Positions 219-46,680 of a DNA stretch of 49,204 nt are shown one piece after another; the first letter of the stretch is position 1; every line of letters begins with the position of its first letter. This DNA comes from SAR202 cluster bacterium (lineage in GTDB: Bacteria > Chloroflexota > Dehalococcoidia > Lucifugimonadales > UBA6952), in NCBI GenBank assembly GCA_009392515.1, contig VFGE01000028.1, positions 1-49,204 of the forward strand, written 5' to 3'. Position numbers and translations under genes: made by a program. The notes beneath the pieces are model-generated. The model was given only the letters and a program-made list of their open reading frames with translations, did not search any database and was not told the origin of the DNA.

Positions 219-2564
219 TTATTGTCCTTCGAAAGTTGTGTAGGCGGCTTCAGTAGAACCAGTATTTGCAACAACAATAACTCCGATAGAATTATTACCA
301 AAACTATTACCTCCGGCATTGTTGCTATTGCTACAAGAATACTGTAAAGATCCTCTTGATTGGATGTAATAAGTTCCAGGATCACTAGGTGCAGTAAAAC
401 TGAAATTCTTTGTTACATTCCCTCCACCATAAGTTCCCCCACTCCTAAGACATGTATTATGAACATCTTGAACTCGTAAGTAGAATTGAACTATACATCC
501 TGGACAATATCCACTTGTATGGGTGTATGTTAAGTTACTACTAACATTAACAGTTGAACCAGGAGTAACAATAGCATACGGCTTTCCTGTACTATTGATA
601 TTTAAGTTTGTCCAGTTTAATGTGCGACCTGCATAGCCATGAGAATGAGTTAATTCGTTATAAGCTACTGTTTGTCCAGGATTAATAATATTTATTTGTG
701 GAATAAATATATTTTGTGTTCCCATAAGGTTGTCGTTATTATCCTTATAAGTTCCATCTGGATAGTAGGTTTTAGTAAGTGTTTGATTATTGTTTAAAGG
801 TGATACTATTTGTGCTTTTTGCCAGATATATGTACCAGTTTTAGGTGTTGAAATACTCGCATTACAGGTAAGTTCGTGTTCGTTAATTTGTAATGTTTCA
901 CCACTAGAAGTATCTTTAAAATCAACAATAAGCCAAGGTGATCCAAGATTATATGTTCCAGAAATATCACATCCTACTAAGTTTAAAAATCCGTCTTTTA
1001 TCCCAGTAACTGTACCGCTATTACGATTAGTGTTGTCGTAAGAACTATTAAACGTCACTGAAAAAATATTAGCGTAATCTTCAGGACTTGGTTCAGGTGC
1101 CGGAGTAGGAGTTGGAGTAGGTGTCGGCGTGGGAGTAGGAGTAGGAGTGGGTGTAGGCGTAGGTGTAGGTGTCACAATTGGTGTTGGAGTTGGGGCAGCA
1201 AAATCAAAATATAAGTGTTCTGCAGTTATCTCATGGTTAATAATTTTATTAGTGGGATCGTCGATATTTTGATCAACTTTTCCTGTGTTCCAATATGTTG
1301 AACGAATGTTGTTATTATCTTTAAGATTTACACGGTCCCATAAGTAATATCCTGCCTGATTCCAGAAATCACCTTCTACGTTTAAAGCTATTTTGCAGCT
1401 TAACATTGCTTTATTATCTCTAATTACATTACTAAATCCAAAGCATGAAAAACTGGTTTCTTGGGTATCTCTTATAAACCAAACGCTCGCTTCTTTAACC
1501 CCATTAAGGTTAGGTTCAATTCCTATTTCTATTGAAATTGCCCGTTCATTATTTGATATATTCAAATTGTTGAGCACTGGTCCGAGTATTGGAGCAGGTG
1601 TTGGAGTAGGTGTAGGTAAAGGTAAAGGCGTAGGAGTAGGGGTAGGTTTAGGAGCAGGAGTAGGAGTAGGAGTAGGAGTAGCTGAAACAGGAGTCGTGGT
1701 TAGTTTTCCAGCGACTTGTGTAGAAGTTGTTTCAGGTGTAGGAGTAGGAGTTATATCAAGAGTTTTTGTAGGTGTAGGGACAGCAACTGTTTCTGTACTT
1801 GTTATAGCATTTAGGTTATTTGTGGTACTAATTATCGAATTTGACGTAGTCGTACCTATTGTTAAATCAGGTTTTTCATAATAAGTTTTGAGCGTTGAAT
1901 AATTATTGTCTATTTCATTTAATAATTCTGGATTTAATTCAGAAACTATAATTGTTGGGTTATCTCCAGCAGTAGCTCCAGTAACAATACCAATTAATTG
2001 ACCACATAAATCGAATACTGATCCTCCATTAAAGTCTTCTGAGATTGCAGTTTGGGAAGAAAATACGTGAGTGTTTATACCAGTAAGATTGGAGCGAGTA
2101 GATTGGTATGAAGCGTTAATAGTGCTATATGGTCCATTGAATATATATGAGCTTGTAATAGCACTTTCGTTTTGGATTGGGATAGAGTTTTTTGTTACAA
2201 TTCCAGTTAAACTCGATGGAATTTCAGTTTCAATAATACCTATATTTGCTGATGGGTAAACTTTAGCATTGATACCTTCGGATACAAAACCCCCATAGAA
2301 ATGAACAAAGAGATCTGAGTTTGATGAGATTTTTTCAGCGATATTATTTGCACTTGTAACTATGAAGTTTGTATCTTTTATTAAAACGCCTGTTATGTAT
2401 CCGACGTCTTTAACTTCAATGCTTACCATTGCAGGTTGTACATACCATTTAGGGTCTTCAATAATTGCACAGTCGTTGGGTTCTACATCATTATTTGATT
2501 GGCATCCAATCAAAAGAATTAAGCTTATTAATATTGGTGTTAATTGTATCTTTTTTATAGTCAT
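219..2564 (-). CDS. Lipoprotein with inactive trypsin-like domain and Thr-Pro linkers
   Basis: 781 residues. The N-terminus is a lipoprotein signal with the lipobox ending LIGC (Cys21), so the protein should be anchored outside the cytoplasmic membrane. Residues about 40-215 resemble a DegP/S1C trypsin-like fold: a VT-S-A segment near 69-72, a strand NIGIIE near 107, and FNGGSVFDLCGQLIGI near 178-193, which aligns with GNSGGPLF...G..GI. At the His, Asp and Ser positions there are Asn73, Asn107 and Asn179, so proteolysis is not expected. Two Thr-Pro-rich linkers (about 295-325 and 460-495) separate a middle and a C-terminal domain, both beta-rich with several Cys. The C-terminal domain (about 630-775) may bind a ligand. 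The architecture suggests a surface binding protein; the ligand is unknown. Confidence 0.75.
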   Translation of the reverse strand: MTIKKIQLTPILISLILLIGCQSNNDVEPNDCAIIEDPKWYVQPAMVSIEVKDVGYITGVLIKDTNFIVTSANNIAEKISSNSDLFVHFYGGFVSEGINAKVYPSANIGIIETEIPSSLTGIVTKNSIPIQNESAITSSYIFNGPYSTINASYQSTRSNLTGINTHVFSSQTAISEDFNGGSVFDLCGQLIGIVTGATAGDNPTIIVSELNPELLNEIDNNYSTLKTYYEKPDLTIGTTTSNSIISTTNNLNAITSTETVAVPTPTKTLDITPTPTPETTSTQVAGKLTTTPVSATPTPTPTPAPKPTPTPTPLPLPTPTPTPAPILGPVLNNLNISNNERAISIEIGIEPNLNGVKEASVWFIRDTQETSFSCFGFSNVIRDNKAMLSCKIALNVEGDFWNQAGYYLWDRVNLKDNNNIRSTYWNTGKVDQNIDDPTNKIINHEITAEHLYFDFAAPTPTPIVTPTPTPTPTPTPTPTPTPTPTPTPAPEPSPEDYANIFSVTFNSSYDNTNRNSGTVTGIKDGFLNLVGCDISGTYNLGSPWLIVDFKDTSSGETLQINEHELTCNASISTPKTGTYIWQKAQIVSPLNNNQTLTKTYYPDGTYKDNNDNLMGTQNIFIPQINIINPGQTVAYNELTHSHGYAGRTLNWTNLNINSTGKPYAIVTPGSTVNVSSNLTYTHTSGYCPGCIVQFYLRVQDVHNTCLRSGGTYGGGNVTKNFSFTAPSDPGTYYIQSRGSLQYSCSNSNNAGGNSFGNNSIGVIVVANTGSTEAAYTTFEGQ
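1096..1198 (-). repeat. Hexanucleotide repeat encoding Thr-Pro linker 2
   Basis: Imperfect tandem units of six bases (GGAGTA, GGTGTA or GGCGTA on the plus strand) encode alternating Thr and Pro on the minus strand, inside the large lipoprotein gene. Such repeats are prone to length change by slippage, but every six-base step keeps the reading frame. Confidence 0.85.
1590..1680 (-). repeat. Hexanucleotide repeat encoding Thr-Pro linker 1
   Basis: A second run of the same kind of six-base unit, interrupted by variants that give Ala, Lys and Leu. It encodes the linker between the trypsin-like domain and the middle domain of the large lipoprotein. A short third run lies near 1735-1750. Confidence 0.8.
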
Positions 2565-2628: not shown

Positions 2629-3015
2629 TTAGTTAATAATCGGAGATCCATGGTGATGTACTAGATACCATTGGTTTTCCACTCTACGGAAAATATTTGT
2701 AGCTTCTACTCTACCTTCATTAACTTTCCCATTAACTACTGAGCGTAGAGATTCAGTACAAACAATCCATCCCCATTCCCCTTCAATTGTAATAGAAGAT
2801 TCGATTATGGTGAATTGCATTACCATAGTATTGTTAAATATGTTTATCCAGCTTTGGAGTATTTCTTTTCTTCCTTGAATTAAGGGCCATCCTGGATGGA
2901 TGCAGGTAACTGCTAACTCTTTATCCCATAATTCATTCATTTCCTCTATATCAAATAATTCGAATGCTCGATAAAATCTTGTATTTGCTTCTATTAATGA
3001 ATCAGTTGTTTCCAT
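2629..3015 (-). CDS. SnoaL/NTF2-like fold protein
   Basis: 128 residues with the SnoaL-like (nuclear transport factor 2 superfamily) pattern: an N-terminal helix (NTRFYRAFELFDIEEMNELWD), CIHPGWPLIQGRKEILQSW in the middle, and late strands ending in NQWYLVHHHGSP. Members of this subgroup are small cone-shaped proteins that bind or act on small molecules, often as dimers; many have no assigned reaction. There is no signal peptide, so it is probably cytoplasmic, unlike its exported neighbours. Its start lies 14 bases inside the end of the upstream gene, indicating translational coupling. The fold is fairly sure and the function unknown. Confidence 0.75.
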   Translation of the reverse strand: METTDSLIEANTRFYRAFELFDIEEMNELWDKELAVTCIHPGWPLIQGRKEILQSWINIFNNTMVMQFTIIESSITIEGEWGWIVCTESLRSVVNGKVNEGRVEATNIFRRVENQWYLVHHHGSPIIN

Positions 3016-3868
3016 TTTTATTACCTTTATATTTGTACGTTATTAGAACTATTACAACAATTAATATTATGGATGAAAAAACTGAAATTAGAGTAGATAT
3101 ATTTATTCTGTTTTCTGAAATGTTTGTATTGTCTATCTGTTCTATAAACAAATCCTGTGTTTTTGTGGTTGACTGAATTTCTTCAGCTGATTGTATTGGT
3201 TTATTTTCATTTAATTCTTCGTGTGTAGGAGTTGGTTTGCTTTCATTTAGTTCCTGGGGTGTAGAAGTCGGTTCATTTATATATATAGGATTAATATACC
3301 AAGCTATTTGTGCTGATGAGTTAAAATATTCGGTATTCCCCGATGCATATACCGATGAGAAAATTTCTTTAGATCCTACAGAAAATACATATCTTAATAC
3401 ACCATTAGATTTTAAGGTAACTTTGATTGTAGAACCATTTTGTAAGGTTTCTTGATGTGAAATCACTCTAATTAGGTTCATTTGACTATAGGGTTCATAG
3501 AATGTACTTCGTATATTAGCTTTGTATAATTCCTTAATAGATTCTTGTTGGTTTTCAGAATTTGATAATTTTTCGATTGAAAGTTCAGGAAGATAATTTT
3601 CTTTAATTTGATTTTCAGGTTCTTGATCTGGTATTAAAATGCTAAATTTCAGTATATTGTCAGAAAAATTATTGAGATTGAATATTATTTCTTCATCTGT
3701 AGACTCAAATTCTCCATAAAATGCATGAGATACAGATGCGTCACTTAAATCAATGGTTGTTATATCTGTGGTTGATTTAATTATTTTAAATGGTTGATGT
3801 GCGTAGATTTTATTTGTTTGTAAAATAAAAACCACTAATATTAATAAAATTACCCATAGATACTTCAA
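3002..3868 (-). CDS. Exported protein with C-terminal membrane anchor
   Basis: Unrecognised family, 288 residues from a TTG at 3868. It has a signal peptide (KYLWVILLILVVFIL, probable cleavage after IYA), a beta-rich ectodomain of about 170 residues, a Thr/Pro/Glu-rich stalk (about 200-235, with ELNESKPTPTHEELNE), one membrane helix near 255-277 and a Lys-rich tail. The topology is extracytoplasmic domain, stalk, anchor. Start choice is open: TTG has no ribosome site, whereas an in-frame ATT at 3892 sits 6 bases after GAGG and would add eight residues. The end overlaps the SnoaL-like gene by 14 bases. It probably acts at the cell surface with the neighbouring lipoproteins. Confidence 0.6.
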   Translation of the reverse strand: MKYLWVILLILVVFILQTNKIYAHQPFKIIKSTTDITTIDLSDASVSHAFYGEFESTDEEIIFNLNNFSDNILKFSILIPDQEPENQIKENYLPELSIEKLSNSENQQESIKELYKANIRSTFYEPYSQMNLIRVISHQETLQNGSTIKVTLKSNGVLRYVFSVGSKEIFSSVYASGNTEYFNSSAQIAWYINPIYINEPTSTPQELNESKPTPTHEELNENKPIQSAEEIQSTTKTQDLFIEQIDNTNISENRINISTLISVFSSIILIVVIVLITYKYKGNKNGNN

Positions 3869-3904
3869 TGATTTTAAGTTTATTGCTGTAATATTTCACC
3901 TCTT

Positions 3905-4108
3905 TTAATATACCAATGCAGGATATTTATCATGTCTTGCAATTTGGTCTTCTTTCCATAGTTTTGCATCATCTTTTGGAACGTTGGGATCTATTGTTTC
4001 ATCAACTTTTTTGTTGGTAATAGTTTGATCTGAGACTTCTTCATCACAACTATTAGTACAAGCTATAAGCAATATTAGAAAAATTAATATAACAATTAAC
4101 TTTTTAAT
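3905..4108 (-). CDS. Small lipoprotein with apparent ATT start
   Basis: A 67-residue protein read from ATT at 4108 to TAA at 3905. It begins (M)KKLIVILIFLILLIAC, a textbook lipoprotein signal with lipobox LIAC (Cys17), followed by a short acidic mature part ending KYPALVY. No ATG, GTG or TTG can serve: an in-frame TGA lies two codons upstream of the ATT, and the next TTG falls inside the hydrophobic core. A strong ribosome site, GAGG, lies 6 bases before the ATT and overlaps the stop codon of the MFS gene upstream (TGAGGTGAAAAATT), which suggests coupled translation. The family is unknown. Confidence in the coding call rests on the intact signal peptide and frame. Confidence 0.6.
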   Translation of the reverse strand: MKKLIVILIFLILLIACTNSCDEEVSDQTITNKKVDETIDPNVPKDDAKLWKEDQIARHDKYPALVY

Positions 4109-4116
4109 TTTTCACC

Positions 4117-5562
4117 TCAACTATTATTCATAGATTTCGGTTCTCCACGTATAATCGAAATTATTGCGGATACATACATTATAAAACCAGCGATAGTAAA
4201 TGAGTTTTTCATTCCACTTATAAATGATAACTTAATACCATTATCTGATGAATCAGTAATATTTGAAAGATTTGGCTCAAAGTTTAATTGTGTCATTGTA
4301 ATTACGACAATAGTTGTTGCTATTGCGATACCGGATAAACTTGCAGTTGCCCTAATCAAATTCATAAATCCTGATCCAATACCAAAGTGAGAACTGTCAA
4401 TAGAATTCATAATTGCACTATTATTTGGAGACATAAATATTCCTGCTCCACATCCTTGCAGTGTCAATCCTAGTAAAATAGCAGTAATACTTGAATTTAT
4501 ATTGAGATACGCAAGGAATATCAAGGCTGAACCACTAATAGCCATACCAAATGCAGTTAGCCATTTAGTTCCAATTTTATCGGATAATTGACCACTAAAT
4601 GGCCCAATAATAGCCATCGAAAGTGCACCTGGAGCAAGCAATACACCCACGGTGGTGGTTGTGAATCCCATTATTTGAATTAAATAGAATGGCATAAGAA
4701 ATCCCGAAAATGACATACTTAAAAATGCTAAGAATCTAGTAGTAACGCTCAGAGAAAAAGTTTTGATTTTAAAGAAATTTAAATCTAATAATGGATCTTT
4801 AGTAGTTTTTTCTTGCCAAATAAATAAGAAAAATAGCAACAGGCAAAGAAAAATGCCGCTACTAATATATAGTGAAGTCCAGCCTTCTTGGTTTCCAAAT
4901 GTTATGACTAGAAGGAAAATTAGAAGAGTTGCAGTAGATAAAAAACCACCTCTCCAGTCAAATGAAAATGCACCTGTAATTTGATTCGGTTGTATATTGA
5001 GTTCTTTATTTCTAAATATGATAAGTGCAATAATTATACCTAACCCACAAAGGATGACGTTAAATATAAACAAAGCTCGCCAATTGTAAATATTTGTTAA
5101 ATATCCACCTATAAGAGGCCCTGCTATAGCACTGAATCCAATTATAGACATATATAATCCCATTGCTTTACCTCGTTGTTTTCGTCCGAAAACATCGGCA
5201 ATCATAGCCATACCATTTGCTTCGATTGATGCTCCACCAAAACCTGCTATAACCTTTGCAATTAATATAACTGAATAGGTAGTCGCAATACTTCCAATAA
5301 TTCCTCCAAGCATCAAGGTGATAAGGCCAGTCAGAAATATTGGTTTTCTACCGATTTTATCAGCTATTTTCCCTAAGGGCATAAATAAAGCACAAACTGT
5401 TAATATATATGCCAACATTATCCATTGTGCATGAGGTAAGCTTAATTCAAAATGATCTGTAACTTTGGGTACGAGAATTTGTGCTGAAGTTTGTTCAGTC
5501 ACACTGGCAAAAACTCCAAAAGCAATGGCAAAAAACCCTAGCCATTTTATATCTAATTTCAT
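4117..5562 (-). CDS. MFS drug:H+ antiporter, DHA2 (EmrB/QacA) type
   Basis: 481 residues, hydrophobic throughout with about 14 predicted membrane helices, the size and pattern of DHA2 antiporters. Motif A is visible after helix 2 (GKIADKIGRKPIF), and a motif-C-like segment (GFSAIAGPLIGGYLT) follows in helix 5. The family exports lipophilic compounds or toxic metabolites in exchange for protons; the substrate cannot be read from sequence. It is the last transporter of the block and lies 26 bases downstream of the beta-lactamase-like gene. Its stop codon overlaps the ribosome site of the small lipoprotein gene. Confidence 0.85.
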   Translation of the reverse strand: MKLDIKWLGFFAIAFGVFASVTEQTSAQILVPKVTDHFELSLPHAQWIMLAYILTVCALFMPLGKIADKIGRKPIFLTGLITLMLGGIIGSIATTYSVILIAKVIAGFGGASIEANGMAMIADVFGRKQRGKAMGLYMSIIGFSAIAGPLIGGYLTNIYNWRALFIFNVILCGLGIIIALIIFRNKELNIQPNQITGAFSFDWRGGFLSTATLLIFLLVITFGNQEGWTSLYISSGIFLCLLLFFLFIWQEKTTKDPLLDLNFFKIKTFSLSVTTRFLAFLSMSFSGFLMPFYLIQIMGFTTTTVGVLLAPGALSMAIIGPFSGQLSDKIGTKWLTAFGMAISGSALIFLAYLNINSSITAILLGLTLQGCGAGIFMSPNNSAIMNSIDSSHFGIGSGFMNLIRATASLSGIAIATTIVVITMTQLNFEPNLSNITDSSDNGIKLSFISGMKNSFTIAGFIMYVSAIISIIRGEPKSMNNS

Positions 5563-5588
5563 TGATTTTCTTTCTGGATTTTTGTACT

Positions 5589-6434
5589 TTACAATGGAAT
5601 AGTAGTGGGTAGTCCTAAACCAAATTCATTTGTTTGATCTAAAGTCAGCATGAACTTATGTGCAGTTTTTGCTAATTCGATTACAAAGGATTCCTGGGAA
5701 AGGGAGTCGGTAATTCCATAATTAGACATTATAGAAATAGCATATGGATTATTAGGTAAATATACAATCCCAACATCGCATCTAACTTTATCCATACCCC
5801 CTGGCTTGTTTGCTATTTTCGTATTTGGCCCAATAGCTTTATTCAGATATGCTGATTTTGGTTTACTCATAATATTTAACACATTGTTAGCAACTTTAGG
5901 AGATGGTTTTTTTTGATACAATAATTCCATCATTTTAGTTAATTCGTTAGGAGTAGAAATATTTTCCTCTCCTCGATTAATTGCATCTGGATCCATCATT
6001 TTACGTCCGAGTTTTGTTTTAGACAGTCCTAGATCTTTTATAAGATTATTTGTTTCTTGCATTCCTGCTAGATCTATACACATATTCGTCGCAGTATTGT
6101 CTGAGACAAGCATCATCAAAATGGCGATATCTAAAATTGTAAATTCTGGTTCATTTTCCAAAAAATGTATAACTCCACTCCCGGCTCCATACATATCTTG
6201 TGTGAATCTCACTCGTTTTGCTAAATCTATTGTTCCTTTATCTTCTAAGGTAAATAGTTGAGTTAATATATGTATTTTAATAGAAGACGCTGTTGGGAAT
6301 ACATCGTCTCCATTAATAGATATCGTTTTATTATTATTTAGACACCTTATAGACAATCCTGCAACACCTTCGAATTGGTTTATTATATTATCCAATGTAC
6401 TTTCTAGATTGCTCCAAAGTAAATTTGTAGTCAT
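5589..6434 (-). CDS. Class A beta-lactamase-like serine hydrolase
   Basis: 281 residues of the beta-lactamase2/penicillin-binding superfamily. The three active-site elements are present: S50-S-I-K53 (SxxK nucleophile and base), S111-D-N113 (SDN loop) and K210-P-G212 (the KTG-like triad). A GEENISTP segment (about 155-162) matches the end of the omega-loop region, but a clear class A ExxLN motif is not seen. No signal peptide is visible, which is unusual because true beta-lactamases are exported. It could be a cytoplasmic esterase, amidase or peptidase instead. It is flanked by an alpha/beta hydrolase (14 bases upstream) and an MFS exporter. Confidence 0.8.
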   Translation of the reverse strand: MTTNLLWSNLESTLDNIINQFEGVAGLSIRCLNNNKTISINGDDVFPTASSIKIHILTQLFTLEDKGTIDLAKRVRFTQDMYGAGSGVIHFLENEPEFTILDIAILMMLVSDNTATNMCIDLAGMQETNNLIKDLGLSKTKLGRKMMDPDAINRGEENISTPNELTKMMELLYQKKPSPKVANNVLNIMSKPKSAYLNKAIGPNTKIANKPGGMDKVRCDVGIVYLPNNPYAISIMSNYGITDSLSQESFVIELAKTAHKFMLTLDQTNEFGLGLPTTIPL

Positions 6435-6448
6435 TGTGTATTCTCTCT

Positions 6449-7177
6449 TTAATTTATAACTTCTATATTTTTACAAAATTCTAGTACAAGTTTCCTAAAT
6501 TCAGCTTGTTTGTGTTTATACACACCATGTTCAGAATCTTGAAAAATTTCTGTACGAGAATTTGGTAGATTTCTTCCTAGAATAATAGATCCTCCAGCTC
6601 CTGCTATTGAATCTTGCCCCCCACCGACTATCAGTGCCGGGCATTTTATTTCTTTTAACCTAGGTGTATAAGGGTGTTCTCTTAGACCAGCCGTTGCACG
6701 AGCTTGTGCTAGAAATGAATCCATATGTTCAGGTTTGATTTTTCTAATTCCTTTACCAACTCTGGATTCTTCACTTTGTTTATACCAGTTTTCAGAGGCT
6801 GTAACGTTTACTTCGCTAGAACTAGAATCAATTATTATTGCAGAACACATATCCTGATAATCTAATGCAAATTGTTGAACAACTATTCCACCCCAAGAAA
6901 CTCCATGAAGAACTACTTTTGTTACATTGAGATGATTTAATAATCGTGCTAAATCATTTGCATATAGAGGTACAGAATATTTTGTAGCTTGTGAAGACTC
7001 TCCTAACCCTCGATTATCCCATGTGATTACACGATCAAAATATTTTTCCCAAAAGCTGAATTCTTCTATGAAAGGTTTCCCACTTTGGCCAATACCATGA
7101 CAATGTACAAATGCAAAGGAGCCTTTCCCAGTTTCTTCATAATGGATGGAAACATCATCTAAGTCTAAGTTTGGCAT
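6449..7177 (-). CDS. Alpha/beta hydrolase
   Basis: 242 residues with the complete alpha/beta hydrolase layout: oxyanion region HCHGIGQSG (about 25-33), the WDNRGLGES turn (53-61), nucleophile elbow G-V-S94-W-G-G, acid Asp189 in IVGGGQDS, and His217 in SEHGVYKH. The family hydrolyses esters, lactones, amides or C-C bonds. No signal peptide is present. It sits between an MFS transporter (15 bases) and the beta-lactamase-like hydrolase (14 bases), so import or export followed by hydrolysis of one compound is plausible. The substrate is unknown. Confidence 0.85.
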   Translation of the reverse strand: MPNLDLDDVSIHYEETGKGSFAFVHCHGIGQSGKPFIEEFSFWEKYFDRVITWDNRGLGESSQATKYSVPLYANDLARLLNHLNVTKVVLHGVSWGGIVVQQFALDYQDMCSAIIIDSSSSEVNVTASENWYKQSEESRVGKGIRKIKPEHMDSFLAQARATAGLREHPYTPRLKEIKCPALIVGGGQDSIAGAGGSIILGRNLPNSRTEIFQDSEHGVYKHKQAEFRKLVLEFCKNIEVIN

Positions 7178-7192
7178 TGTTTCAACATTCTT

Positions 7193-8362
7193 TCACTGTA
7201 TTTTTATATTTTTACTCAGAATAATTACTAATAAACTTACTATTGAAATACCTATCATACTAATATTTAAACTATAATTATCAGCAATAAATCCAAACAA
7301 AATTGGTGCAATAGCAACCCCAACTTCAGTACTTGTATAGTAAATACCGTATGCTTTTCCCCGTGTTTCTGAATTTGTAATTTGTGCAACTATTCCGTAA
7401 AGAACAGAAGAAGTTCCATTTAATCCTATACCTAAAAGAAATACTAATACTGTGCCAATAGGGATATTGGTAATAAGTATTATCGGGAGTAGAATACTAA
7501 CTACTATTTTTGTGGCAAAAATTATAGAGAAAGCATTATATCGGTCACTCAACCATCCTGAAGAGAATTTTCCTATAGCTCCTCCACTATATAATATCGT
7601 AAATATTAGTGTAGTACGGAGTGTACTCATACCTTTTGAAATAAATAAAAATGGTATAAACGTTAGTGTTGCTGTTCGAATCATTGAGTCAATAAATCCT
7701 GCCGCCATGAGTACTACAAATTGTGAATCAATTACAGGGGGCAAATTTGATGTTTTAGTTTTAGTTGGAGTTTGTTTACCATTTGCACTACTAGGTGATC
7801 TTGATATTGATAAGCTCATTAATAAACTTCCAATTACCACTATTATGCCTGTAATACCTACAAACAATAGACACTTTTGCCACCCAAAAGAAACGACTAA
7901 TATTGCGACAATAATTGGTGCAATTATTTTCCCAAGATCGCCCGAGAAATTTAATATACCGATAGAAGTAAATAGTGATTTTGTGTCTGAGCCTCTAGAA
8001 ACAAATCTTGCCCCAACAGGATGTTGAATTCCACCACCTATTCCCGTTATAAATGACATACCTAGAAACATTACATTTGTAGTTGCAAAGCTCATTAATA
8101 TGACACCGATGCCAACCCATATATTAGCACCCCCAATAAGCCAAAATTCACTTATACGGTCAGAAACAATACCTGCTGGTAGTTGTGTTAATGCAGCACC
8201 CAAGTCGAATACGGTTTTGATAAGACCAGTTTGAGTATAATTTAGTTGGTATGTTATGGCTATGTATGGCAACAAAGGATACATAATCGCAAAATATAGA
8301 TCACTTATAATATGGTTACTACAAGAAAAAGCTAATATTTTATTTGTTTTATTTTTTAACAT
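7193..8362 (-). CDS. MFS transporter, 12-helix type
   Basis: 389 residues with about 12 predicted membrane helices. An MFS motif A-like segment follows helix 2 (PAGIVSDRISEFWLIGG), and its repeat in the second half is GKFSSGWLSDRYNAFS. The segment FITGIGGGIQHPVGARFVSRG resembles MFS proteins of the NNP/oxalate/fosmidomycin-resistance type, but the substrate is open. It differs in size and sequence from the two DHA2 proteins nearby, so these are not recent duplicates. It lies between EamA (32 bases) and the alpha/beta hydrolase (15 bases) in one run. Confidence 0.8.
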   Translation of the reverse strand: MLKNKTNKILAFSCSNHIISDLYFAIMYPLLPYIAITYQLNYTQTGLIKTVFDLGAALTQLPAGIVSDRISEFWLIGGANIWVGIGVILMSFATTNVMFLGMSFITGIGGGIQHPVGARFVSRGSDTKSLFTSIGILNFSGDLGKIIAPIIVAILVVSFGWQKCLLFVGITGIIVVIGSLLMSLSISRSPSSANGKQTPTKTKTSNLPPVIDSQFVVLMAAGFIDSMIRTATLTFIPFLFISKGMSTLRTTLIFTILYSGGAIGKFSSGWLSDRYNAFSIIFATKIVVSILLPIILITNIPIGTVLVFLLGIGLNGTSSVLYGIVAQITNSETRGKAYGIYYTSTEVGVAIAPILFGFIADNYSLNISMIGISIVSLLVIILSKNIKIQ

Positions 8363-8394
8363 TCAGATAAGTTAATCTATATTGAAATAAATGT

Positions 8395-9303
8395 CTATGA
8401 ATTAGTGCTATATATCAAAATAACAATACTGGCAATAATTAAAAATATAGAAAAGATTTCAGTGCGACTAATTCCTTCTTTAAATATTCTCTGAGTGACC
8501 AATATCGAGAATAGTAACTCTACTTGTCCAACAGTTTTTACGTATGCTGCTTGTGTCAAAGCAAAGGCTGTAAACCAAGCAATCGATCCAATTGCACTTG
8601 TAACACCCACTAATAAAGAACGTTTCCAGTAGAATAAGATTCCATTAAACATTGATCTGTTTTTATATGTAATCCATATACCAAGTTGAAATATATTAAG
8701 GATTAATATAACAAGTAGTGTTAAGGCAGCATTAGTTAAGGGGATGTCATGATTGAGTATAAGAATGGCTTCACGAATAAGTAATGCATCAAAAGCGAAC
8801 GATGCTCCAGATGTTATGCCAATAAATACAGACTTGTTGTTTAAACCAGTTAGTAGTGATTTTAGTTCTATGTTTTGTTGTGAAGACGACATAATCACCA
8901 CACCTAACATACCTAAAATTACAGCTATACTACTTAGGATGTTGAGATATTCTTGAAAGAAAATTGCTCCAAATATGGCAACTTGTATTGCTTCGGTTTT
9001 GGTATAGGCAGTACTTACAGCAAAATTCCGATGAGAGAACAGCGAAACTAGTAATATTGTTCCAATAATTTGAAATAATCCCGCAAATAAACAATAAACA
9101 ATAAATTTTTGATTTATTGATGGAAATTCAAAACCGCTATTATGTAGCACAACTACATAGATGATTACAATAGGAAATCCAAATATAAAGCGTATCCATG
9201 TTATAACCTCAGCAGATAGAAATTTAGTTAATGATTTTTGGATACTTGTACGAATAGTTTGCATTAATGCTGCAAAAATAGTGATAAAAACCCAAGTAGA
9301 CAT
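8395..9303 (-). CDS. EamA/DMT-family transporter
   Basis: 302 residues with about ten hydrophobic helices arranged as two repeats of five, the pattern of the drug/metabolite transporter superfamily. Motifs include AVSTAYTKTEAIQVAIFGAIFFQE at the end of repeat 1 and QAAYVKTVGQVELLFSILVTQRIFKE in repeat 2, where EamA domains typically carry a conserved Pro/Glu-rich hairpin. Members export or import amino acids, sugars or other metabolites. It begins one base after the stop of the 147-residue hypothetical gene, which argues for tight coupling between them. Confidence 0.85.
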   Translation of the reverse strand: MSTWVFITIFAALMQTIRTSIQKSLTKFLSAEVITWIRFIFGFPIVIIYVVVLHNSGFEFPSINQKFIVYCLFAGLFQIIGTILLVSLFSHRNFAVSTAYTKTEAIQVAIFGAIFFQEYLNILSSIAVILGMLGVVIMSSSQQNIELKSLLTGLNNKSVFIGITSGASFAFDALLIREAILILNHDIPLTNAALTLLVILILNIFQLGIWITYKNRSMFNGILFYWKRSLLVGVTSAIGSIAWFTAFALTQAAYVKTVGQVELLFSILVTQRIFKEGISRTEIFSIFLIIASIVILIYSTNS

Positions 9304-9304
9304 T

Positions 9305-9748
9305 TTATGCTAATCTTAATTCAGGAATTTCTATTCCAATTTGTGGTATCGAAAGTGTAGTACTTTTTATTGCATCGACAATATCTTGAGATAATGGTTT
9401 AACGAGTTTGTAAAATCCGTCTTCAAAATTATCTCGCATAATTATATCCATTGAGATTAATTTAGCTATCTGAGTTCCGATTACTACTTGGTATTGACCA
9501 TTAGGAATATTAAAATTCGTAAACCATTCATGGTAAATGCTACCCCAAGTTTCACTTCCAATTTCAGAAGATAAGGCAATATCAATTCCACTTGGATAGC
9601 TGCCTTCAGAAAATCGCTTAAATACTGCGTTGAAAATATCGTCTCGTGATTTTACTTGTCTTGGTTGATCAGGATCGTAATGTATCCATGACGCTAAGAT
9701 ACAGCAATCAATTAATGCAGTTGGTGGTATAGTATTCTTATCATCCAT
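9305..9748 (-). CDS. Conserved-looking protein of unknown function
   Basis: 147 residues, soluble, with no signal or membrane segment. I do not recognise the family. It contains many acidic and aromatic residues, a central WGSIYHEWFTNFNIPNGQYQV and a C-terminal PQIGIEIPELRL. Mixed alpha/beta structure is likely. The ATG at 9748 follows GGGGCAAGTA, a modest ribosome site. The gene ends one base before eamA, so it may act with that transporter or simply share its transcript. Confidence 0.6.
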   Translation of the reverse strand: MDDKNTIPPTALIDCCILASWIHYDPDQPRQVKSRDDIFNAVFKRFSEGSYPSGIDIALSSEIGSETWGSIYHEWFTNFNIPNGQYQVVIGTQIAKLISMDIIMRDNFEDGFYKLVKPLSQDIVDAIKSTTLSIPQIGIEIPELRLA

Positions 9749-9816
9749 TACTTGCCCCTATAGCTTTTTCTTTTTTTCTTCTCGATTGTCGCATTTCCTT
9801 TAAGATTTGCCAAACA

Positions 9817-11301
9817 CTAATTAATGTTAATTTGGGTTTTTTTCAACCCAATCCAAGCAATTAACGAAGAGATAACACCTAGAATCATAAGTATTGAACC
9901 TAATATATACGATATTTGAAAAGCATACATAAATGATTCAATAGAATCCCTAGTTGAAGATGCATATATAAGGTCTACATCAGGTGAATTGGATTGATAT
10001 AAAAAGGTGAAAAACCAACCGATGAGCGTAACTGCAGTTACGCTACCAAATGCTCTAGATATAGCGGATATAGCTCCGCCAGTACCTAAAGAATTTGACG
10101 ACATGTTACCCATAATTAAACTTAAATTTGCACTTTGGAAAAGGCCTATACCAGATCCAACAATAATCATCCTAATACCTATTTCTACTAATGAAGATTC
10201 CGGAGATAATATGCTATATGATAATAGGCCTAAACTCACAATACATAGTCCTGCAACACTAGTAATTCCAGAGCCATATTTATCAGAAAAATATCCACCG
10301 ATTGGAGAACATAACGATATTGAAATTGCGTTTAGTAATAGAAATATTCCTAAAATTATTGATGATGCGGAAATTATTTCTGCTACAAAAAAAGGAAGTA
10401 TAAATAAATTAACAAAAGATCCCATATATAAAAATAGGTTTGCAAAAAAACCACCCAAAACAATAGGATTATTAATTAATGTAAATTCAATTAAGGGATT
10501 ATTTAGTGATATTTGTCTTCTAATAAATAATATTATTGAACCTATTGATATTACTGAAGTAGAAAGAGTTGGTATTTGAATCCAGCCGATATTTGTCCCT
10601 AAATTTAAAAATAATACTGCAGATATAATACCAATGAATATTAATATTGCTCCAATCCAATCGAAATCAGTTGTTCTGTGGGTTTTTTGAAGGTTTGATG
10701 TGTTATAGGTTTTAATTACAATCAATGATCCAATAATACATAACACACAGATTGGTATCCTGCCTAAAAATATCCATTGCCAAGGTAAAAATTCTAGAAT
10801 TACACCAGCAAATACTGTACCAAAAATCATGCCTAAACTTCCTATGCCTGCCATAATCCCAAGAGCTCTACCTCTATAAGATGATGGAAATAACGATGTT
10901 GCTAAAGCAGGGGCGATAGACAATATAGCGGAATTGCCAAATGCTTGTAATATACGAAATCCTAGAACAGTATTTATTGTAGGAGAAAGTCCAATAGATA
11001 CCATTGCAATTGTGTATACTATTAATCCGAAAATAAACACGTTTTTTAATCCAAACGCGTCTCCGGCACTTCCCATTGGTAATTGTAAAGCTACAGTAGT
11101 CCCAAGGTAAAAAATTATCATAAAATAGGTGATGTTAGGAGAAACAGTGAAAAATTCTGAAATATTTGGTAGGGCGACATTCACACTTATATCTAAAGCA
11201 CTTAGAAACATACCAGAACCAACCAGAATAAGTTGGATCCATTGAGTTCTACTTATTGAATCCGCAGAATTTATTTCATTCTTGTTGAGTTTATAGATCA
11301 A
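9817..11301 (-). CDS. MFS antiporter, DHA2-like, 14 helices
   Basis: 494 residues and about 14 membrane helices. It has the DHA2 features: SGMFLSALDISVNVALPNI in helix 1, LPMGSAGDAFGLKNVF as a divergent motif A, and GSLGMIFGTVFAGVILEF as motif C. Motif A lacks the usual Arg-Lys pair (here LKN). Role: proton-coupled efflux of an unknown small molecule. The start is a TTG at 11301 without a clear ribosome site, so the true start may lie slightly downstream. It follows the carboxymuconolactone-decarboxylase-like gene by 12 bases. Confidence 0.82.
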   Translation of the reverse strand: MIYKLNKNEINSADSISRTQWIQLILVGSGMFLSALDISVNVALPNISEFFTVSPNITYFMIIFYLGTTVALQLPMGSAGDAFGLKNVFIFGLIVYTIAMVSIGLSPTINTVLGFRILQAFGNSAILSIAPALATSLFPSSYRGRALGIMAGIGSLGMIFGTVFAGVILEFLPWQWIFLGRIPICVLCIIGSLIVIKTYNTSNLQKTHRTTDFDWIGAILIFIGIISAVLFLNLGTNIGWIQIPTLSTSVISIGSIILFIRRQISLNNPLIEFTLINNPIVLGGFFANLFLYMGSFVNLFILPFFVAEIISASSIILGIFLLLNAISISLCSPIGGYFSDKYGSGITSVAGLCIVSLGLLSYSILSPESSLVEIGIRMIIVGSGIGLFQSANLSLIMGNMSSNSLGTGGAISAISRAFGSVTAVTLIGWFFTFLYQSNSPDVDLIYASSTRDSIESFMYAFQISYILGSILMILGVISSLIAWIGLKKTQININ

Positions 11302-42496: not shown

Positions 42497-43561
42497 ATGA
42501 ATAGAAAATCTTTTGATAATATTGATAATGTTTTCTCAAATCCTCCTGAATGCTTCGATAAATTTAGACTCATCGTAGATCAAGGGTTATTTGATTGTAT
42601 TGGCCCATTTAGTAACGAATTAAAAAAAACAATGGGTTATCATCTAGGTTTTAATGATCAAGATGGCAATTTATTAGATAAGCGTTCAGCCGGTAAATCT
42701 TTGAGGCCTACTTTAAGTTTACTGGTATGTGAATCATTAACTAGTGACTACTTACCAGTTTTATATTCAGCTCTTGCAATCGAACTGATTCATAACTTTT
42801 CATTAATTCATGACGATATTCAAGATAGAGATACAGAGCGTAGACATCAAAAAACAGTCTGGACTTTGTGGGGGGAACCTAGAGCATTATGGATTGGGAA
42901 TACAATGCGTTCTCTAGCTGATTCTACTCAATCAAATATTGAGCTAGATTCTACTATTATGTTGAAGGCTGCTGAACTTTTATCCCAAGCTTCTATGGAA
43001 ATGATTGAAGGGCAATTTATGGACGTAGAGTATGAAAAAAGATTACATGTTACCTCGGATGAATATTTGTTAATGATTTCCAGAAAAACTGGGGCTCTGA
43101 TTAGATGTGCTTCAGAACTTGGTGCTCTTCATTCTTTAAATGACGAATATATAACAACAAAATTTAGAGATTTCGGATCACATCTAGGTAGGGCTTTTCA
43201 AATTCGTGATGATGTTTTAGGTATTTGGGGAGATACGAAAATTACCGGAAAGCCTGTTGGGAGCGATATATTACGAAAGAAAAAAACATATCCAATTTTA
43301 TTAGCATTAGATGTTGCAAATGAGGTAGATAATCCAGAATTAGCAAGTTTAATGTTTCAATCTGAGATTTCAGATTTAGAAATGGATAAAATTATTACAA
43401 TAATGAGTGATTATGAAGTTTTTGAAAAATCTCAAAATATGATTGAATATCACTCAGAATTAGCTCTTGAATGTATTAATAGTGTTAAAGACTCACTATC
43501 AAAATGGGGTTATAATCAATTATGTCATTTAACAAATTACTTAGCATATAGACTATCCTAA
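42497..43561 (+). CDS. Trans-isoprenyl diphosphate synthase
   Basis: 354 residues, all-helical polyprenyl synthetase fold. It condenses IPP with allylic diphosphates to give farnesyl, geranylgeranyl or longer diphosphates. First aspartate-rich motif: LIHDDIQDRDTERR (DDxxD), with the second in FQIRDDVLGIWGDTKITGKPVGSD. GKSLRPTLSLL carries the substrate-binding Arg. The product length is uncertain, but its position directly before hpnCDE suggests it supplies farnesyl diphosphate for squalene. The ATG has no strong ribosome site. It is divergent from rny. Confidence 0.9.
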   Translation: MNRKSFDNIDNVFSNPPECFDKFRLIVDQGLFDCIGPFSNELKKTMGYHLGFNDQDGNLLDKRSAGKSLRPTLSLLVCESLTSDYLPVLYSALAIELIHNFSLIHDDIQDRDTERRHQKTVWTLWGEPRALWIGNTMRSLADSTQSNIELDSTIMLKAAELLSQASMEMIEGQFMDVEYEKRLHVTSDEYLLMISRKTGALIRCASELGALHSLNDEYITTKFRDFGSHLGRAFQIRDDVLGIWGDTKITGKPVGSDILRKKKTYPILLALDVANEVDNPELASLMFQSEISDLEMDKIITIMSDYEVFEKSQNMIEYHSELALECINSVKDSLSKWGYNQLCHLTNYLAYRLS

Positions 43562-43581
43562 TAGAGGTAAATGGTGTTATT

Positions 43582-44472
43582 TTGAAGAGAAAGCAATTAG
43601 TAGATTTAGCTTTCCAATATTGTGAATCTTTGGCGAAAAGTAACTATGAAAACTTTTTTATTGGAACATTATTCTTACCTAGAAAAATAATTAAACATTT
43701 TCATTCAATTTATGCTTATTGTCGTATGATTGATGATTTTGGGGATAAATTTTCTGGGGAATCGAATAATTTCCTCGATTACGCTGAAGAGCAATTAAAT
43801 TTATGTTATCGAGGTAAACCTGATTCATTAAGTTTTCATGCTCTGTATAAAACAATTTGTGAATTTGATATACCAATAAAACCTTTCCAAGATCTGATAG
43901 AAGCCAACAGAATAGACCAGAATAAAAAAAGATATAATACTTTTGCAGATCTTTTATTGTATTGTGAAAAATCTGCAAACCCTGTCGGACATCTTGTTTT
44001 ATATATTTTGGGTTTTATTGAAGATAAATGTTTTGAACTGTCTGATTTAACTTGTACAGCATTACAGCTCACAAATTTTTGGCAAGATGTTCAAGAAGAT
44101 TACATTTTAAGAGATCGTATATATATTCCCTTAGAAGATATGAAAAATTTCAACTATAATGAACAACAATTATGGAATCGCGAGTATAACCAAAGCTTTG
44201 TAAATCTAATGCAATTTCAGATTGATAGAACATCAGGTTATTTTTCAGAGGGATTAAAGTTACTAGATTATATTTCGGGTAAGCCAAAAATTGAAATTGC
44301 TATGTTTAATCTTGGGGGTCTAGGTGTTTTGGAAAAGATTAAGAAAAGAAAGTACAATGTTTTTTTAGGCAGACCAAAATTAAGTCACATAGATAAAACA
44401 GGGCTTTTATTAAAATCAGTTTTGATTTCAAATCGGTTAGGATATAAATTATTTGGACACATTAGGCATTAG
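43582..44472 (+). CDS. hpnC: Squalene synthase HpnC (hydroxysqualene synthase-type)
   Basis: 296 residues of the trans-isoprenyl head-to-head synthase family. The aspartate motifs are AYCRMIDDFGDKF and LTNFWQDVQEDYILRDRIYIP. In the HpnCDE pathway, HpnD forms presqualene diphosphate, HpnC converts it to hydroxysqualene, and HpnE reduces that to squalene. Being first in order and carrying the NFWQDV motif suggest HpnC, as in known hpnCDE clusters. Start is TTG 43582, with AGAGG about 14 bases upstream, further than usual. It overlaps hpnD by 20 bases. Confidence 0.85.
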   Translation: MKRKQLVDLAFQYCESLAKSNYENFFIGTLFLPRKIIKHFHSIYAYCRMIDDFGDKFSGESNNFLDYAEEQLNLCYRGKPDSLSFHALYKTICEFDIPIKPFQDLIEANRIDQNKKRYNTFADLLLYCEKSANPVGHLVLYILGFIEDKCFELSDLTCTALQLTNFWQDVQEDYILRDRIYIPLEDMKNFNYNEQQLWNREYNQSFVNLMQFQIDRTSGYFSEGLKLLDYISGKPKIEIAMFNLGGLGVLEKIKKRKYNVFLGRPKLSHIDKTGLLLKSVLISNRLGYKLFGHIRH

Positions 44473-45346
44473 TGATATACAACTAGAATATGCTTATGAT
44501 TATTGTGAACAGATCACAAAAGAAGAGGCTAGAAATTTTTATTATGCCTTTATTACTTTACCAATGCGAAAAAAAAGAGCGATATACACTGCGTATGCTT
44601 TTTGTAGACGATGTGATGATGCTGTAGATAATAGTGAATCTACAAATGAAAAAAAACGTTTGTTAGATGAAATTGAAAATAATTTAAAATCTGGAATAAA
44701 TTTAGATAAGTCAATTCTCGAAAATAACCCGATAATTTTAGCAACTTGTGCCATAATTGAAGATTATAATATTCCCCAACAGTATTTTTTTGATGTAATC
44801 GAAGGCGTAAGAATGGATATTGAATTTACAACATTTGATTCTTTTGATGAAGTTAAAGAATATTGCTATAAAGTTGCCAGTGTTATTGGTTTAATTTGTA
44901 TAAAAATATTTGGATATACAAATCCTAAAGCAGTCGAATATGCAATTGATTTCGGTTTAGCAATGCAATTAACCAACATATTAAGAGATATTCTAGATGA
45001 CTTAAATGAAAACAGATGTTATTTAGCTTATGAAGAAATGGAAAAATTTAATTATTCAATAAAGCTATTAACAGAATCTTTGTATAATGAAGATTTTATA
45101 CAATTAATGAAATTTGAAGTTGATAGAGCTAAAAGATATTTTGAATCAGGATCAAGGTTACTCCCTCTTGTAGATATAGATTCACGTATTTGTTTGGTAA
45201 TCTTATCAAAAATATATAGCAAAATTTTAAAAAAAATTGAGAAGTCTAATTATAATATTTTTCAAACAAATTATAGATTGAACACATTTGAAAAGTTATC
45301 CATTATGGGATTTGCATGGTTGAGATACAAAATAACCAAGAAATAA
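44453..45346 (+). CDS. hpnD: Presqualene diphosphate synthase HpnD
   Basis: 297 residues, the same fold as the preceding gene. Aspartate motifs: AFCRRCDDAVDN and LTNILRDILDDLNENRCYLAYEEM. The RDILDD form of the second motif is typical of HpnD and phytoene synthases. SRNFYYAF-like sequence near the N-terminus reads EEARNFYYAFITLP. Start is TTG 44453, 20 bases inside hpnC with AGGA ten bases upstream. It could alternatively be a phytoene synthase, but the second synthase and HpnE-like gene next to it favour squalene synthesis. Confidence 0.85.
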   Translation: MDTLGISDIQLEYAYDYCEQITKEEARNFYYAFITLPMRKKRAIYTAYAFCRRCDDAVDNSESTNEKKRLLDEIENNLKSGINLDKSILENNPIILATCAIIEDYNIPQQYFFDVIEGVRMDIEFTTFDSFDEVKEYCYKVASVIGLICIKIFGYTNPKAVEYAIDFGLAMQLTNILRDILDDLNENRCYLAYEEMEKFNYSIKLLTESLYNEDFIQLMKFEVDRAKRYFESGSRLLPLVDIDSRICLVILSKIYSKILKKIEKSNYNIFQTNYRLNTFEKLSIMGFAWLRYKITKK

Positions 45347-46680
45347 AAAAAAATAATGCCATAGTAATTGGGGGAGGTATCGCTGGGATATATAGTGCCA
45401 TTTTATTACAAGAAAAGGGCTATATAGTTTCATTGATTGAACAGAGAAAATTTTTAGGTGGTCGAACTTATTCGGTTAAAAAATCTTTAAAACCTCAATA
45501 TGATAATGGGCAACATTTACTCATGGGTTGTTATCGAAATTTATTACAGTTTTTCAAAAAAATTGGAAGCTTATCTGAAATACATTTTCAAGATTCATTT
45601 AGTGTAAAAATCATTGATAGAACAGGAAAGATTGGAATTATTCGCGATACAAAATTTCTTCCATTCGGATTGATTCTATTAGTTTCACTATTAAAATATC
45701 CGTATATAGGATTTCAAGAAAAATTGAGCGCAATATTTACATTAGTAAAAATGAAATTCATAAATAGAAAAAATCCTAAGTATCAAAGTTTTTCTTTTTC
45801 CGAATGGTTAGAACATAATGGGCAATCTAAAAATGTAATCGAAAAATTTTGGGATTTAGTCATATTGCCAACATTGAATGATCATGTTTCTAAAGTAAGT
45901 GCAGATATGGGTTTAATGGTTTTTCAAGAATCAGTTTTACGAGGAAATCGTTACGTAAAATTAGGATTCCCGAAAGGTACCCTAGATGAAATTATATCTA
46001 TTCCAGGCAAAGAATTTATTGAAAATAAGGGTGGAACTATATACGTGGGCAATGGTGTCATGAAATTATTCTATAAAGATAACAAAATTACCAATATCGA
46101 ATTAAAAGACGGGACAAAATTATCTGCAGATGTAATCATAAGCGCAGTACCTTCAAATTCTCTTTACAAGATTCTTCCAGAAGAATTACAATCGGATAAA
46201 TTTTTTAACAGATTACCCCAAATAGAACATTCTTCAATTGTTAATATTTATATTTGGTTAAATACAAGAATAATGAACGATCAATTTATTAATGTTATTG
46301 ATAGTCCCTTACAGTGGATTTTTAATAAATCATCACAAGATAATCAATATCAATTACTTGATATTTCAATAAGTGACGGTAAGGATTTATTGCAAAAAAC
46401 AACAGCAGATATAATTGATTTAATCTTTAAAGAATTAAAATCTATTTTCCCAGAATTTGATGTTAAATTTGTTGAAAAATATAAAATAATTAAAGAAAGA
46501 AAAGCTACATTTAGATGTACTCCTAATACTAAGAAATACCGCTTGACTAATATTTCCCCTATAGATAATTTGTATATTGCTGGCGATTGGGTTGATACTG
46601 GATGGCCATCTACAATGGAGAGTGCGGCTATAAGTGCTTATAACGTAGTTAATGTGATTGAGACTAATAATAAACAGTAA
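45316..46680 (+). CDS. hpnE: Hydroxysqualene dehydroxylase HpnE
   Basis: 454 residues of the FAD-dependent amine-oxidase/phytoene-desaturase superfamily. FAD-binding GGGIAGIYSAILLQEKGYIVSLIEQRKFLGGRTYS is intact at the N-terminus, with YDNGQHLLMGCY next, and the C-terminal flavin site IDNLYIAGDWVDTGWPSTMESA. HpnE reduces hydroxysqualene to squalene. It starts 31 bases inside hpnD. No squalene cyclase gene is in the window, so the end use of squalene (hopanoid, carotenoid-like or free) cannot be told. Confidence 0.87.
   Translation: MVEIQNNQEIKKNNAIVIGGGIAGIYSAILLQEKGYIVSLIEQRKFLGGRTYSVKKSLKPQYDNGQHLLMGCYRNLLQFFKKIGSLSEIHFQDSFSVKIIDRTGKIGIIRDTKFLPFGLILLVSLLKYPYIGFQEKLSAIFTLVKMKFINRKNPKYQSFSFSEWLEHNGQSKNVIEKFWDLVILPTLNDHVSKVSADMGLMVFQESVLRGNRYVKLGFPKGTLDEIISIPGKEFIENKGGTIYVGNGVMKLFYKDNKITNIELKDGTKLSADVIISAVPSNSLYKILPEELQSDKFFNRLPQIEHSSIVNIYIWLNTRIMNDQFINVIDSPLQWIFNKSSQDNQYQLLDISISDGKDLLQKTTADIIDLIFKELKSIFPEFDVKFVEKYKIIKERKATFRCTPNTKKYRLTNISPIDNLYIAGDWVDTGWPSTMESAAISAYNVVNVIETNNKQ

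Follow-up and report, generated by a model that had tools for sequence, protein, structure and literature searches.

The window (the whole stretch of 49,204 nt of DNA that was analysed) contains a gene for a modular lipoprotein with an S1C (HtrA-type) domain that is almost certainly non-catalytic. Judged by its sequence, this domain is an S1C pseudoprotease: the predicted fold is maintained, the catalytic triad is lost, and the domain is retained under selection. As a clear-cut example, it shows an HtrA domain that was inactivated completely and is nevertheless held by strong purifying selection; the host is a marine bacterium of small genome size that appears to be uncultured. The region from 1900 to 2564 that was described in the first-pass annotation corresponds to residues 1–221 of the 781-aa open reading frame. 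The features of the gene are as follows.

219–2564, minus strand: lipoprotein gene, 781 aa, ATG start (open reading frame)
2502–2564, minus strand: predicted signal sequence and lipobox LIG-C21 (read by eye from the sequence)
1920–2471, minus strand: predicted dead S1C/HtrA-type domain, residues about 32–215 (Pfam, hhalign, HtrA-guided AF2)
2469–2471, minus strand: Cys32, first of the Cys pair of the dead family (invariant in 7 of 7 family rows)
2346–2348, minus strand: Asn73 (AAT) at the position of the catalytic His57 (hhalign, MAFFT, L-INS-i)
2244–2246, minus strand: Asn107 (AAT) at the position of the catalytic Asp102 (hhalign, MAFFT, L-INS-i)
2034–2036, minus strand: Asp177 replacing Gly193 of the oxyanion hole (alignment)
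2028–2030, minus strand: Asn179 (AAT) at the position of the catalytic Ser195 (hhalign, MAFFT, L-INS-i)
2004–2006, minus strand: Cys187, second of the pair, in the turn that follows the strand of the Ser loop (invariant in 7 of 7 family rows)
1584–1919, minus strand: first linker, Ser/Thr- and Thr-Pro-rich, residues 216–327 (sequence; dN/dS)
1200–1583, minus strand: second domain with Cys374 and Cys390, possibly Ig-like (sub-threshold DUF7035 match; even Cys count)
1074–1199, minus strand: second Thr-Pro linker, residues 456–497 (sequence)
645–1073, minus strand: third domain with Cys532 and Cys567 (sequence)
222–644, minus strand: fourth, C-terminal domain with Cys687, Cys690, Cys705 and Cys744 (orthologue identity)

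The window belongs to a 1.55-Mb assembly that is 98% complete, and has a G+C content of about 33%. By its lipobox (LIG-C21) the 781-aa protein is a predicted bacterial lipoprotein; a hydrophobic stretch precedes the lipobox, and the identical arrangement was read by eye in both orthologues. These orthologues (784 and 786 aa, overall identity 87–88%) were found in a Dehalococcoidia MAG from Station ALOHA (JAKUQA010000013) and in Anaerolineales bacterium UBA832, both Chloroflexota, by scanning the collection with the C-terminal domain. The second domain of an orthologue reached 25.5 bits against DUF7035, below the cut-off of 27, and the third domain has a possible, weak similarity to the second (hhalign, E 0.06). 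For the C-terminal domain, no relatives were found in 57 other genomes of the order, a plasmid search gave no match, and a PDB search gave no convincing match. The number of Cys residues is even in every domain. The initial description of a modular surface lipoprotein with Thr-Pro linkers and Cys-bearing domains is supported.

That the N-terminal part contains a trypsin-like S1C domain, as first proposed from the sequence, is borne out by several comparisons. Residues 58–193 matched the whole Pfam model Trypsin_2 (2–144 of 144) with an E value of 4.2e-5 and 24.7 bits, just below the curated cut-off of 27.6 bits. When the three orthologues were compared by hhalign to 13 HtrA domains drawn from the same order and class, the E value was 1.9e-7 over 153 columns. 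A relative from another family of the order (genome G049) clears the Trypsin_2 cut-off with 38.8 bits and matches the lipoprotein with an E value of 3.7e-14, providing a transitive link to S1C. A profile of the dead family matched HTRA1, HTRA2, DegQ and MamO in the PDB at E values of 2e-4 to 2e-3. Structure prediction by AF2 with an HtrA-rich alignment resulted in a model with pTM 0.76 and pLDDT 74.8, a value that needed HtrA rows from viral contigs in the alignment. With this model Foldseek retrieved DegP and HTRA1 at E values of about 1e-9, and superposition on HtrA structures (VIA), a check put forward in the first-pass annotation, gave Z 18–19 and an rmsd of about 3 Å over about 177 residues. 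The fold support from AF2 is non-independent because the alignment contained HtrAs; the three orthologues alone led to an unusable model (pLDDT 29.6). By the profile matches, residues about 32–215 are a homologue of the S1/S1C chymotrypsin fold, and the match is far beyond chance.

In three separate alignments (hhalign, MAFFT and L-INS-i) Asn73, Asn107 and Asn179 fall into the columns of the catalytic His, Asp and Ser, in agreement with the original assignment. All 31 HtrA rows used for comparison read H/D/G/S; as these rows were partly chosen by their GNSGG motif, they provide an alignment check and not a survey. A PDZ domain was not detected in the lipoprotein (no Pfam match at E up to 10). 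Lacking the triad and the oxyanion Gly, and with no PDZ domain detected, the protein is predicted not to be an active HtrA/Deg protease. It has in common with DegP/HtrA the fold and the conserved strands around the three catalytic positions, but differs from these proteases by the absence of triad, Gly193 and PDZ domain and by an extra Cys pair. It is extremely improbable that the domain is still a hydrolase that uses non-standard residues. Beyond the kept fold no point supports this idea, while all three triad residues and Gly193 are gone. Furthermore, residues 22–221 contain 2 His, of which H88 is not in the His57 column and H166 is replaced by Tyr in UBA832.

A decaying pseudogene in an AT-rich genome could also lose its triad. 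An open frame of 781–786 aa is however present in three species, and the substitution pattern speaks against decay. The dead S1C domain is 85–86% identical in the two orthologues (94–96% for the C-terminal domain), and N73, N107 and N179 are kept in both of these, which come from other species. Values of dN/dS for the dead domain are 0.09–0.12 over dS 0.38–0.67, and the distal domains have values about as low. For the first linker, comparison of the window gene to the two orthologues gave dN/dS of 0.35–0.57. Since dN/dS is about 0.1 in the domain and 0.35–0.57 in the linker, the dead domain very likely is kept for a real function, and the low dN/dS together with the intact orthologues refutes the pseudogene, to which we assign a negligible probability. 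The earlier view that the fold is kept without catalysis under selection was thus correct, and this selection is purifying.

The lipoprotein is a member of a small family of dead S1C proteins, whose common traits are, by alignment, the loss of catalysis and the pair C32/C187. None of 31 HtrA rows has Cys in either of these two columns. The same genome encodes one normal HtrA (GNSGG and His motifs read) on another contig (C26) than the lipoprotein. It also encodes two paralogues of the lipoprotein that are dead as well, are anchored to the membrane and share its Cys pair. The first paralogue (own226; L006:3978-4655(+)) is a transmembrane-anchored protein of 225 aa with R84/N118/E187 at the triad positions. 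It consists of little besides the dead S1C domain and is kept in genome G001 with dN/dS of 0.12. The second is a 476-aa lipoprotein with R106/G136/E211, where the assignment of the Asp position is uncertain. Orthologues of both paralogues occur in G001, and their triad residues are unchanged. The family member in G049 (L020:4535-5920(-)) is an S1C lipoprotein with TPR repeats after the domain and the same Cys pair. Its triad positions read K100/D130 and an Asn before GG; this Asn was placed by the GG motif, and the last segment of the alignment is gapped. A fourth protein (476-aa lipoprotein on contig C20; L008:4120-5550(-)) has a partial, sub-threshold S1C match (E 0.11); the DLAII strand is present, the GNSGG loop is absent, and by eye the Cys pair is absent as well.

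Among 250 genomes of the order the Cys-paired family was found in G000, G001 and G049 only, and UBA832 adds one genome. The orthologue group with three Asn and the Cys pair was found in three genomes only. No other clear Cys-paired member was found in samples of the class and of the phylum (about 400 genomes each), and no relative of the dead family was found in viral contigs. Inspection of the homologues at the three positions, as the first reading had proposed, revealed no intact triad in the family, and intermediates with an intact triad and the Cys pair were absent from the 250 genomes of the order and from the class and phylum samples (about 400 each). In the tree the dead rows are on one side of a branch (90/81). 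A single origin of the dead family is not established by this tree, and the inner branching order is left unresolved because the branches are very long. The other readable matches were ordinary HtrAs, with one exception in another family of the order: a 626-aa S1C lipoprotein (L029:1267-3147(+)) reads NHQVI at His, GLAVL at Asp and LNGAPL in the Ser loop. This protein has no Cys pair and keeps a PDZ-like region; its sequence motifs, altered at His and Ser, suggest that catalysis was lost here once more and independently.

Loss of all three catalytic residues to the same amino acid had been taken as a sign of selection, and this part of the first-pass annotation is not supported. In the dead family the triad columns outside the orthologue group read R/N/E and R/G/E (paralogues) and K/D/N (G049), and the triad was lost differently in these proteins. 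In each of the three orthologues the codon AAT is used for all three Asn. A single base change turns a His (CAY), Asp (GAY) or Ser (AGY) codon into one for Asn (AAY). At the composition of the domain, the chance of three Asn is about 0.0005 and that of any identical triple about 0.007 (about 0.7%); these figures stand before counting the number of dead domains that were examined. The invariance of the Asn residues in the orthologues has little weight, because about 85% of the domain positions are identical there. Selection for Asn as such was rejected on the basis of the paralogue triads and of the one-base codon distance in an AT-rich genome. The triple Asn is probably not special: as far as the alignments tell, catalytic death is family-wide, and the triple Asn is particular to the orthologue group of the lipoprotein.

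Considering the reported roles of other S1C domains, our favoured reading is that the domain serves as a binding module (receptor, adhesin or scaffold) of a modular surface lipoprotein, and we consider this moderately probable. The lipid anchor would hold the S1C barrel just outside the cytoplasmic membrane, and a C32–C187 disulfide could link the second barrel and the N-terminal segment. The barrel would offer a preformed cleft and a rigid surface; through the old cleft or the barrel surface it may bind, without cutting, either a partner or a peptide, protein or polysaccharide ligand. The Thr-Pro linkers would carry the two Cys-bearing domains and the Cys-rich C-terminal domain outwards. The presence of VKOR would support disulfide formation, and VKOR was not found in the genome. 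The gene neighbours of the lipoprotein are uninformative for function, and the data also agree with a role that is structural or regulatory only.

In Clostridium thermocellum, the S1C protease-like domain of RsgI9 is reported to bind cellulose (PMC12203970). The S1C-NTF2 ectodomain of RsgI9 (PDB 7sjy) was matched by Foldseek with an E value of 7.8e-9, together with a weak sequence match (E 0.01). Like the lipoprotein, RsgI9 is a modular protein of the cell envelope that exposes an S1C protease-like domain at the surface. Unlike it, RsgI9 is an anti-sigma factor that spans the membrane and has an NTF2-like domain fused to S1C; the protein described here is a lipoprotein that combines S1C with Thr-Pro linkers and different domains. 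An RsgI-type anti-sigma factor was also considered for the window protein and rejected: a signal peptide is at its start, and a fusion of a cytoplasmic anti-sigma domain and a transmembrane helix is absent. If the binding reading is true, the HtrA barrel would be used for recognition at the cell surface, in line with the report on RsgI9.

A second known system is MamO of Magnetospirillum magneticum, in which a non-catalytic HtrA domain binds metal and activates MamE (PMC4794232). Together with RsgI9 it sets a precedent for non-catalytic use of the fold. Its protease domain (PDB 5hm9, 5hma) was matched by the dead-family profile (E 0.002) and by Foldseek. Both proteins have an acidic residue at position 193 (Glu223 in MamO, Asp177 here), and in MamO the Glu at this position sterically blocks the active conformation (PMC4794232). 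MamO is likewise an HtrA-derived pseudoprotease kept for non-catalytic roles, but it retains His116 and Asp149 and has Thr for Ser, while all three residues are lost here. It also differs by metal binding through surface His and by a TauE transporter domain, where the lipoprotein has other modules. By analogy, the dead domain could associate with the active HtrA (contig C26) or with the dead paralogues and control or present substrates, with no external ligand involved. One active HtrA and several dead S1C proteins occur in the same genome, and MamO activates proteolysis by MamE without a triad of its own. However, the genes for the dead proteins do not adjoin the HtrA gene, which is on another contig, a common PDZ domain or partner was not detected, and the distal domains on Thr-Pro linkers indicate surface exposure. 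We therefore regard such a regulator as unlikely.

The barrel could also be inert, acting as a stable base or spacer at the membrane for the distal domains. The strong conservation of the C-terminal domains (94–96% identity for the last one) is consistent with this, and the extra Cys pair could just stabilise the barrel. But the dN/dS of the domain is as low as that of the distal domains, beyond the apparent need of a spacer, and the 225-aa paralogue has hardly anything for a spacer to carry, which makes an inert module quite improbable. A more far-reaching version of the binding reading considers the Cys-paired set, made up of three paralogues per species in two species of a single marine genus of Chloroflexota, plus the TPR-fused relative from another family of the order. 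These presumably disulfide-stapled S1C pseudoproteases might be lineage-specific surface ligand receptors, in which the triad sites were rebuilt in each paralogue (NNN, R/N/E, R/G/E) for specificity; this proposal is speculative, and we give it a low probability.

A survey of 91 prokaryotic genomes catalogued 966 serine proteases, 42 of them as putatively inactive homologues (PMC2605481). Since inactive bacterial S1 homologues are already catalogued, the general view is unchanged by our data. Retired proteases are known, with MamO and RsgI9 published; the lipoprotein is a further case, with a lineage-specific Cys pair and architecture and with paralogues that lost catalysis in different ways.

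Some observations concern the surroundings of the gene. In the comparison of G001 and UBA832 (L056, L057), the three distal domains of the lipoprotein gene have dS of 0.01–0.03 and the dead domain has dS of 0.38; this mosaic points to recombination within the gene. The genes at 2800–9900 of the window, upstream of the lipoprotein gene, have 94–100% nucleotide identity to G001 (L019/L056 comparison), versus 77–96% for the lipoprotein gene (region 219–2800) and dS of 0.8–1.6 for the unlinked paralogues. The pattern looks like DNA exchanged recently between species, the breakpoint being located a short way upstream of the lipoprotein gene. A SnoaL/NTF2-like gene (2629–3015, minus strand) is located upstream of the lipoprotein gene at a distance of about 65 bp and is collinear with UBA832 in the alignment. 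We do not press it as a parallel to the S1C-NTF2 arrangement of RsgI9: SnoaL-like genes are common, the product has no signal peptide, and the closeness of the two genes may be coincidence. The next gene (3002–3868, minus strand) overlaps the SnoaL-like gene by 14 bases and is kept in G001. Its product of 288 aa has a signal sequence and a C-terminal transmembrane helix; no family was matched convincingly. At 42497–46680 (plus strand) there are, in this order, genes like those for a polyprenyl synthase, two squalene/phytoene synthases and an amine oxidase (named from sequence), a set resembling a putative cluster for hopanoid or carotenoid precursors.
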